Source: Candidatus Acidiferrales bacterium (lineage in GTDB: Bacteria; Bacteroidota; Ignavibacteria; Kryptoniales; JAKASW01). From it: a stretch of DNA of 64,000 nucleotides. The first letter of the stretch is position 1, and each line of letters begins with the position of its first letter. Location of the stretch: positions 1-64,000 of the forward strand of contig DATJAY010000035.1 of assembly GCA_035515795.1 (NCBI GenBank), given 5' to 3'. Positions 15,744 through 26,284 of this stretch are shown here, in pieces. The translations under genes and the position numbers were made by a program. The notes beneath the pieces were generated by a model. The model ran no database searches. It saw nothing but the letters and a program-made list of their open reading frames with translations, and was not told where the DNA came from.

Positions 15744-17027
15744 ATGAGACGTGAAATACCAAAAACTGTCATAGCAGGAATCATTATAACTGTTGTGGTT
15801 CTTCTCGCAATCTACATTTTCACAAACCTTCCGGGCGGAGGTACATCAGTATCTCACGCCCCATCGACTGAAGTCTCGTACGTGGGCGGAGACAAGTGTG
15901 CAACCTGCCACCAGCGTGTCACTCCCGATATTGTCTTCCAATTCGCCTCGGGAACCATGGCAAAGTCGGGCGTGAAATGCGAGGATTGTCACGTCGTCGA
16001 AAGGAACAATCCGATGGGCCACGAACACGAAGGATTCTACATTACTTCGGAGCCGACGCCCAAACAGTGCGGAAGATGCCACGTGAGAGAGACCGACGAA
16101 TATTCACACAGCCGCCACGCCGGACCGGCATGGATGGCACTTACCGGTTTTGACGATTTCGATTCCGATCAACGGAAGGTGACTGAAAGCATCCCCGAGC
16201 TTACCCGCGGGCCGAACGGAATTCCCACCGCTACGAGAAATTCCATCTTCGATATGGAGGGCCCGAACGTAACGCCTGCCGCATGTCAAAGCTGCCATGA
16301 AATCGGGAAGCCGAACAAGGATGGCAGCATCGGCAACTGCAACAAGTGCCACCTTAGGCACGAGTTCTCTCTTGGCCAGGTCCGCAAGCCTGAAGTATGC
16401 GGACAGTGCCACCTCGGTCCCGATCATCCCCAGGATGAGATTTACAGAGAATCCGCACACGGTGTGATGTACGCGACCGAAGGAGATAAATGGAACTGGG
16501 ATCAGAAACCCGGCCGGCTGACAACCCGGGATTTTCCAGCTCCAACTTGCGCCACCTGCCACATGAGCGGCTTCGGCGGACAAGGCACCACACACGAAGT
16601 GGGAACCCGTCTCACAAAATTTTTATTCTCGGCAATCTCAGCTGACAGACCGAACGGCGGGCAAAATCGCCTCGCAATGCAAGAGATCTGCGCGAATTGC
16701 CATTCGCAATCGTTCATCAAAAATGTTTATCGGCAGGCCGATAGTGTCACCTCCTTTGTGAATTCAAAAGTGCAGGAAGCTTCCGACATAATCACGGGAC
16801 TCATTAAAGATAATGTAATTACTTCCAGACCGTTCGCGACACAAATCAGCTACGATGCCTTCGATCTCTGGCATTACTACGGCAGGACGGCGAAGTTCGC
16901 TGCTTACATGCAGGGACCGGACTACGTTCAGTGGCACGGCGTATACCCTCTTCTCAAGCAATTAAGCAAAGTGAAAGAGGATGCTCAGGAATTACGTTCT
17001 CGCCACAGAGGAGGCGTCGGGCAATGA
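15744..17027 (+). CDS. Octaheme c-type cytochrome, hydroxylamine-oxidoreductase family
   Basis: The 427-residue protein has an N-terminal membrane anchor/signal (residues 7-28) and eight CxxCH haem sites at about 52, 79, 109, 181, 199, 219, 269 and 316. Spacing and blocks such as CHVRETDEYSHSRHAGPAW and the C-terminal GPDYVQWHG match HAO-type octahaem proteins, so it should act on nitrogen compounds (hydroxylamine, nitrite or NO) outside the cytoplasmic membrane. Whether the cross-linking Tyr that makes a P460 haem is present cannot be settled by eye; without it the family usually works reductively. The stop overlaps the start of a membrane protein gene (ATGA), which implies a membrane-bound complex. 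Confidence 0.88.
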   Translation: MRREIPKTVIAGIIITVVVLLAIYIFTNLPGGGTSVSHAPSTEVSYVGGDKCATCHQRVTPDIVFQFASGTMAKSGVKCEDCHVVERNNPMGHEHEGFYITSEPTPKQCGRCHVRETDEYSHSRHAGPAWMALTGFDDFDSDQRKVTESIPELTRGPNGIPTATRNSIFDMEGPNVTPAACQSCHEIGKPNKDGSIGNCNKCHLRHEFSLGQVRKPEVCGQCHLGPDHPQDEIYRESAHGVMYATEGDKWNWDQKPGRLTTRDFPAPTCATCHMSGFGGQGTTHEVGTRLTKFLFSAISADRPNGGQNRLAMQEICANCHSQSFIKNVYRQADSVTSFVNSKVQEASDIITGLIKDNVITSRPFATQISYDAFDLWHYYGRTAKFAAYMQGPDYVQWHGVYPLLKQLSKVKEDAQELRSRHRGGVGQ

Positions 17028-17896
17028 ATGAGCTGACAGTATTCCATCTTGCGCGCGTGAAATTGCCGATCGATAAAAATAGACTTCTTCTGATCCTTGT
17101 CGGCGTGAATTTTATCTTTACCGGACTTGACGTTGTCCTTGCACACGCGGTGAATGATTTTGTACCATCATACGAACTGATTCCAGTAATCTTTGCGCCG
17201 CTGGGCGCTTTATCCAGTTTCCTTGTAGCGCTAAGACCGAGACCGGGAAAACCAACCGTTCTTGCTCATATTATGCTGATGGGATTGGGAATCATTGTTG
17301 GCGTGCTTGGAACGGCGTTTCACGCGAATCAGGCGTTAAACCCGCTTGGACAACTGACTTGGATTTGGGTAACATTTGCTTCTCCCATTCTCGCACCGTT
17401 GGCGTTTGCAGGAATTTCTTTCGTCGGCTTATACGGTGTTATCAAGGAAGTCAACAACCAACCCGGAATTCTCGAGGTGCCTGGTCTGGGAGTTTTTAGA
17501 GCGCCCATCTCGCGTGACCGCCATTTTCTTTGGCTTGTCGGTCTCGGATTCGCAGCAAGCGCGCTCACTTCGATTATCGACCATGGTCAATACGGATATT
17601 CATTATATAAGCTGATTCCCATTGTATTCGGATTATTTTCTACGAGTGTAGTCATGACACTGGCCATTAGCAAGAATTGGTCTCACGGAGATGAGTTGAC
17701 GTATTTCTGGACAATGATTGCGGCAATAGTTGTTGGCGTGCTTGGATTTGCATTCCACTTGTCGGGTGATCTCGCGGACAACGGCCGTCTCAGCATCGAG
17801 AGAATCCTCGTGTTTGCTCCGGTTCTCGCCCCGTTGCTGTATTCCGATTTGGGAATACTCGGACTTATCATAGTGGCAAACCAGGAAGGCGAGTAG
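17024..17896 (+). CDS. Duplicated multi-pass membrane protein paired with octaheme cytochrome
   Basis: The start at 17024 overlaps the cytochrome stop and has GAGGAGGCG just upstream. The 290-residue protein has about eight membrane segments and is built of two similar halves: LAHAVND (H41) matches IIDHGQY (H167), ELIPVIFAPLG matches KLIPIVFGLFS, VGVLGTAFHAN (H100) matches VGVLGFAFHLS (H225), and SPILAPLAF matches APVLAPLLY. The repeated histidines could ligate haem b or bind quinone; this is inference. I know no family name for it. By position it would anchor the octahaem protein and pass it electrons from the quinol pool, or the reverse. Confidence 0.8.
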   Translation: MNELTVFHLARVKLPIDKNRLLLILVGVNFIFTGLDVVLAHAVNDFVPSYELIPVIFAPLGALSSFLVALRPRPGKPTVLAHIMLMGLGIIVGVLGTAFHANQALNPLGQLTWIWVTFASPILAPLAFAGISFVGLYGVIKEVNNQPGILEVPGLGVFRAPISRDRHFLWLVGLGFAASALTSIIDHGQYGYSLYKLIPIVFGLFSTSVVMTLAISKNWSHGDELTYFWTMIAAIVVGVLGFAFHLSGDLADNGRLSIERILVFAPVLAPLLYSDLGILGLIIVANQEGE

Positions 17897-26031: not shown

Positions 26032-26060
26032 GTTCTTTAAAATACTTTTTTGAAATTTTA

Positions 26061-26284
26061 AGCCGTAGCGTCGCCGTGGTTACACGTGAAAGAACTGCTA
26101 AGTAAAAAATTATGGGAGCCCGGCTCGTGAACGAAAAATGCAGGCCTCATCCCTGCGGTATTTATGATATCGTCAGAGACGATCCGTTCAGGATTGCAGT
26201 GGAAGCATGACTCGTTCAGGAGGGCACCCACCGTGTCAAGATGGGGTTCTTTCCTATCTTCCACGTGCACGCTGCGGCTTTTTT
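26061..26284 (+). ncRNA. ssrS: 6S RNA candidate
   Basis: The segment starts AGCCGTAGCGT and ends ACGCTGCGGCT plus a T-run, which pair over 11 bp (one G-T) to close a 220-nt RNA; CGTGG/CCACG extends the stem. Inside, TGAACG (26128-26133) pairs with CGTTCA (26213-26218), and smaller hairpins GCAGG/CCTGC and ATCGTC/GACGAT occur. Position after zapA is classical for 6S RNA, which traps housekeeping RNA polymerase. The multi-hairpin centre is less rod-like than the E. coli form, hence the reserve. Confidence 0.72.

Follow-up and report, generated by a model that had tools for sequence, protein, structure and literature searches.

What does an octahaem cytochrome of the hydroxylamine oxidoreductase (HAO) type do when its gene is coupled to one for an unfamiliar membrane protein? 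Two genes in the 64,000-nucleotide stretch of DNA analysed here (the window) raise this question. The initial annotation read them as an octahaem HAO-type cytochrome with a duplicated membrane partner that does not resemble known ones such as NrfH and cM552, possibly a distinct quinol-linked complex for nitrite, NO or hydroxylamine. We consider it probable, at about 0.6, that the cytochrome (OCC) and its membrane partner (MP) form a self-contained inner-membrane quinol:N-oxide oxidoreductase, with NO as the most likely substrate and nitrite and hydroxylamine as alternatives. The relevant features are these:

15744..17027, + strand: occ, membrane-tethered octahaem HAO-like cytochrome, 427 aa, 8 CxxCH
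aa 7-28 of OCC: N-terminal transmembrane anchor, from the structure model
16422..16427, + strand: OCC codons D227-H228, equivalent to active-site D267-H268 of Nitrosomonas HAO (NeHAO), invariant in 85/85
16923..16940, + strand: OCC codons Y394-V-Q-W-H-G399, in place of NeHAO W465-T-Y467-T-E-G470
17010..17014, + strand: GGAGG within the 3' end of occ, likely ribosome-binding site of mp, read from the sequence
17024..17027, + strand: ATGA start/stop overlap of occ and mp, 4 bp
17024..17896, + strand: mp, membrane partner with eight transmembrane helices, 290 aa, in two homologous four-helix halves
H41, H100, H187 and H245 of MP: invariant histidines

As listed, the mp open reading frame spans 16931-17896 and begins at an upstream GTG. 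The true start is very likely the ATG at 17024, because this codon overlaps the occ stop, follows the GGAGG at 17010-17014 and is where related proteins begin. A divergent relA/spoT gene lies on one side of the pair, and tRNA-Leu, tRNA-Val and thrS lie on the other; since these are housekeeping genes, occ and mp were taken as a stand-alone pair and a role in a larger operon within the window was rejected. Elsewhere in the window, positions 26059-26282 match 6S RNA (RF00013) barely above the Rfam threshold.

Profile, fold and alignment all place the cytochrome among the HAO-like octahaem proteins, nearest to the Ignicoccus enzyme (IhOCC, 4qo5), and one of the two outcomes that would have contradicted the initial annotation, membership of another multihaem family, was looked for and did not emerge. 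The protein matches the Pfam multihaem cytochrome family PF13447 (5e-30), and in the profile search 4qo5 is the nearest solved structure (E 2.7e-54), followed by NeHAO, Kuenenia HAO-like proteins and hydrazine dehydrogenase (HDH). The predicted model (pLDDT 85) aligns with 4qo5 at Z 28.5 (rmsd 2.3 over 359 residues), with NeHAO at Z 23.9 and with all HAO-like structures at Z 22-28, compared with about 10.9 for the octahaem nitrite reductase ONR and about 9.8 for NrfA. An NrfA or ONR identity was rejected on these low scores and on the haem motifs, all eight of which are CxxCH; the active-site haem of most NrfA and ONR members is bound by CxxCK. Hydrazine dehydrogenase itself (NCBIfam NF052343) was also set aside, at 82.8 bits against a curated cut-off of 900. 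The hydrophobic N-terminal helix has no obvious cleavage site and is present in 85/85 family sequences, the set used for all residue counts in OCC.

The active site combines retention and loss. Asp267 and His268 of NeHAO correspond to D227 and H228, kept in 85/85 members. Tyr467 of NeHAO cross-links to haem 4 to form P460, and alignment with HAO, which the initial annotation had recommended as a check, places Q396 of the window protein in this column (two alignments agree); across the family the residue is Gln in 84/85 sequences, His in 1/85 and Tyr in none of the 85. An oxidative P460 enzyme proper, whether HAO, HDH or HOX, was therefore rejected, and because the cross-linking residue is missing, the sequence predicts that OCC works in the reducing direction. 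W397-H398-G399 and Y401 are invariant, as is a Met (M389) at the position of NeHAO His459. At position 72 (window 15957-15959; alignment A5), the 17 sequences of the window's clade, composed of Bacteroidota, Chloroflexota and Gemmatimonadota, carry Met, and the other 68 carry His within an SxHA motif, a substitution that may alter a haem ligand.

The predicted model of MP (pLDDT 88.7) contains eight membrane helices, and the duplication proposed earlier proved to be internal to the protein: profiles of the two halves align over 130 columns with 29% identity (hhalign probability 99.5%, E 3e-22; reversed control 0.6%). Both termini are probably cytoplasmic, because the loops on the N-terminal side hold most of the Lys and Arg residues (7, versus 2 opposite), which would put H41, H100, H187 and H245 near the periplasmic face. 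These histidines are invariant in 86/86 members, occupy helices 1 and 3 of each half and, for H100 and H245, form the last residue of a GxxGxxxH pattern; further conserved positions are Asp36, Glu51, Asp186 and a number of prolines and glycines. Placed at predicted ends of transmembrane helices, the four histidines are compatible with two bis-His sites, as in a di-haem b-type protein, or with a quinol site.

Family searches agreed with the view that this partner differs from known ones. MP contains no CxxCH, none of the 86 members scanned reached a Pfam or NCBIfam cut-off, sequence and profile searches of the PDB gave no match, and no Foldseek match to the model had an E below 0.001; GPCRs, rhodopsins and transporters among its weaker rows look like generic helical bundles and were discounted. 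The best matches in the fold comparison (VIA) were 3dby (Z 14.9) and 3d19 (Z 13.8), soluble proteins with 5-6% identity that we take to be DUF2935-like tandem helical bundles; they were not accepted as kin, such scores being common for helical models in general. A quinol dehydrogenase of the NapC/NrfH/cM552 type was rejected for want of CxxCH and of any family match, and an NrfD/PsrC identity by profile, with no Pfam NrfD match and an hhalign probability of 0.6% in comparison with three NrfD proteins that the same genome encodes; neither NrfD/PsrC nor cytochrome b folds appear among the fold matches listed, although MP may still share one of these folds. Relatives were found in half-size proteins of Bacteroidota (L120-L132), about 145 aa long, with four transmembrane helices and the same two-His motifs, which are homologous to each half of MP (hhalign 97.5%) and have no Pfam family of their own. 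They lie mostly beside a gene for a helix-hairpin-helix lipoprotein and have no adjoining cytochrome.

The pairing is conserved far beyond close relatives of the window, and the second outcome that would have contradicted the initial annotation, a pair not kept in relatives, did not arise either. Scanning named genomes with the OCC alignment alone recovered 80 loci under 13 phylum labels (taken as given for the metagenome-assembled genomes), including Poribacteria (25), Planctomycetota (17), Bacteroidota (8), Verrucomicrobiota (6) and Chloroflexota (5), and each of the 80/80 loci holds exactly one OCC and one MP. The two reading frames are adjacent and on the same strand wherever the first gene picker resolved both, and no other neighbour is conserved across loci. 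Conversely, searches with MP found the full-length protein only beside an OCC, and a scan of 395 genomes from the window's phylum gave strong OCC matches (E below 1e-180) in seven and a full-length MP in exactly the same seven; in the window's genus, the pair occurs in 6/13 genomes. Over 2877 pairs, the identities of the two proteins correlate at r 0.90, compared with no more than 0.20 after shuffling, and in the tree a branch with support 81 separates the MP-associated cytochromes from the rest. A single Verrucomicrobia contig, CAINLR010000113, carries two pairs, one beside a qNOR gene (L073) and one beside a nirK-like gene (L078). In the open-access literature, which misses most subscription papers, we found no description of MP or of the pair. 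An earlier paper described HAO-like genes of Phycisphaerae as possible Onr (PMC11266412), and the cytochrome has probably been seen before; it is a known kind of protein, and the membrane partner appears to be new.

Sister cytochromes offer a guide to what MP does. Two more HAO-like subfamilies occur in the window's class, the Ignavibacteria-type genomes, whose sequences were read by eye: in one (L140-L143), the gene for an OCC of 440-447 residues is flanked by a NapH-like gene and a gene for a NapC/NirT-type cytochrome; in the other (L144-L146 and L149), a cytochrome b gene is followed directly by the gene for a tethered OCC of 537 residues. The L143 locus also adjoins an NrfA-like gene. On plasmids of Desulfosarcina ovata (L158) and Desulfobaculum bizertense (L159), the OCC, about 31% identical to that of Singulisphaera, follows an annotated NapC/NirT gene; the Desulfosarcina unit sits beside norR, an NO reductase gene and a hemerythrin gene. 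Both units being on plasmids of sulfate reducers, this OCC may be mobile. In Kuenenia, an OCC belongs to a Rieske/cytochrome b complex (PMC12954380). Since the sister cytochromes pair with NapC/NirT or cytochrome b modules, MP by analogy occupies the place of the quinol-linked donor, and we infer on this basis that it acts as a quinol dehydrogenase, possibly with haem b. The quinol link proposed in the initial annotation is consistent with this arrangement.

Evidence on the substrate comes from gene neighbourhoods. In three loci (L057, L067, L089), a gap of about 15-30 bases separates occ from the end of an upstream hcp gene (hydroxylamine reductase/hybrid cluster protein), matched far above the cut-off, and in three others (L073, L076, L086), a qNOR-type NO reductase gene lies downstream of mp with a Crp/Fnr regulator beyond it. 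Near L078, there is a COX1-domain gene and a nirK-like gene truncated by the end of the locus (243.7 bits against a cut-off of 296.3). All of these N-oxide neighbours belong to Verrucomicrobia and one unassigned metagenome-assembled genome of the same clade; they represent one lineage and perhaps no more than a few independent events. At most other loci the neighbours are unrelated and no nitrogen gene lies close by.

Within the window's genus, full-length NirK matches occur in seven genomes (G002 barely below the cut-off), and G003 has a fragment only. Two of the seven encode qNOR (G001, G004), four the OCC-MP pair (G000, G002, G009, G012) and one both (G005), a distribution for which a one-sided hypergeometric calculation by hand, qNOR versus OCC-MP, gives about 0.08 over few, related genomes, qNOR being the only NO reductase type searched. 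This pattern is a hint. The window genome itself has NirK, and the NO reductase search, which covered qNOR, detected none in it; by reading, its NirK cluster contains hemerythrin-like and SCO-like genes and no NO reductase in 18 kb. About 500 aa long and carrying one CxxCH, the NirK proteins of the genus (L153-L156) look like fusions with a cytochrome c domain. Searches of the genus detected neither Hcp nor NarG nor a full-length NrfA; NrfA as a companion of the pair was dismissed, its partial matches lying inside other multihaem proteins. The qNOR and norR contexts, together with the NirK pattern, weakly favour NO over nitrite. A stronger formulation, that the pair is an undescribed class of quinol-dependent NO reductase, unrelated to the haem-copper enzymes and serving NirK-bearing bacteria that lack qNOR, is speculative and in our judgement unlikely.

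Other readings of the same evidence differ in the role they give to the partner or in the chemistry of the cytochrome. OCC could be a reductase supplied with electrons by a different donor, for instance a soluble cytochrome, with MP anchoring, assembling or maturing it or binding a metal. This accords with the searches of Pfam, NCBIfam, PDB and fold collections, none of which linked MP to a family that binds quinol or haem, and with the half-size relatives that stand apart from any cytochrome and mostly beside the lipoprotein gene; the strict one-to-one coupling, the quinol modules found in the same place beside sister cytochromes and the invariant paired histidines on the predicted periplasmic side nevertheless make it improbable, though the likeliest of the three alternatives.

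Reduction of a substrate without nitrogen, for example a sulfur compound, a peroxide or a metal, is less probable again. Most loci lack a nearby nitrogen gene, and sulfite is present in crystal complexes of some multihaem reductases from distant families, but the active site is of the HAO type and N-oxide genes do occur next to the pair in Verrucomicrobia and beside the NapC-type sister. Several host lineages include aerobic members, which, with the HAO fold and the conserved Asp-His pair, would suit the opposite direction of electron flow, a hydroxylamine (or NO):quinone oxidoreductase feeding the quinone pool. That reading is very unlikely: the Tyr required for P460 is absent in 85/85 sequences, hcp and qNOR are reductive genes, and relatives without the Tyr are described as reductive in PMC3701875 and by Ferousi et al. 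2021, as cited in PMC11266412 and PMC12758564.

The quinol:N-oxide oxidoreductase that we prefer would work as follows; quinol oxidation, the cofactors of MP, complex formation, direction and substrate are all parts that we infer. Quinol would be oxidised at MP near the periplasmic side of the membrane, where the four invariant histidines would probably either bind cofactors, perhaps a pair of b-type haems, or form the lining of the quinol site. From there electrons would move, perhaps through the b-haems, to the tethered OCC and reach haem 4, the putative HAO-type active site with its Asp-His pair and without a Tyr cross-link, at which the N-oxide would be reduced in the service of respiration or detoxification.

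In metagenomes, an HAO-like cytochrome readily suggests a nitrifier or an anammox gene, and for this subfamily, which is widespread, lacks the catalytic Tyr and has its own uncatalogued membrane partner, such a reading would be wrong. If quinol-driven reduction of NO, nitrite or hydroxylamine is its true function, an unrecognised N-oxide reductase would be present in many bacteria, among them Planctomycetota, Poribacteria, Verrucomicrobiota, Chloroflexota and Bacteroidota, and a third kind of membrane module driving octahaem cytochromes would become testable.

Several known systems can be compared with the pair. HAO of Nitrosomonas, HDH and HOX share the octahaem fold and the equivalents of Asp267-His268, whereas OCC lacks the P460 Tyr and has a membrane tether and a membrane partner. 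IhOCC of Ignicoccus hospitalis also lacks Tyr467 and has Met at the NeHAO His459 position, but it is longer (521 aa), follows its active-site Asp with Val where OCC has His, and falls with its like outside the OCC-MP group in the tree. The half-size proteins of Bacteroidota share the two-His motifs of MP, but as a single bundle with no adjoining cytochrome. Like the pair, the NapC/NirT units combine a sister OCC, bearing a WWHG motif in the Ignavibacteria members, with a dedicated membrane electron donor, which is a CxxCH cytochrome, unlike MP. The Rieske/cytochrome b systems (Kuste4569-4574 of Kuenenia and the Ignavibacteria loci L144-L149) likewise tie an HAO-like OCC to a membrane quinol module, but through cytochrome b and a multi-gene cluster rather than a two-gene pair. 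By analogy, the closest functional precedent is the reverse-HURM pathway of Nautilia, in which quinol feeds a Tyr-less HaoA through cM552, a reductive module with experimental support, and Hcp comes next in the proposed sequence (PMC3701875). The resemblance of this epsilon-Hao to OCC, drawn from the published description, lies in a Tyr-less octahaem HAO that is fed by quinol and used reductively. The partner in reverse-HURM is a tetrahaem cytochrome c of the NapC/NrfH type, whereas that of OCC is an eight-helix protein without CxxCH; the hcp-occ-mp gene order in Verrucomicrobia mirrors the Nautilia pathway with Hcp.
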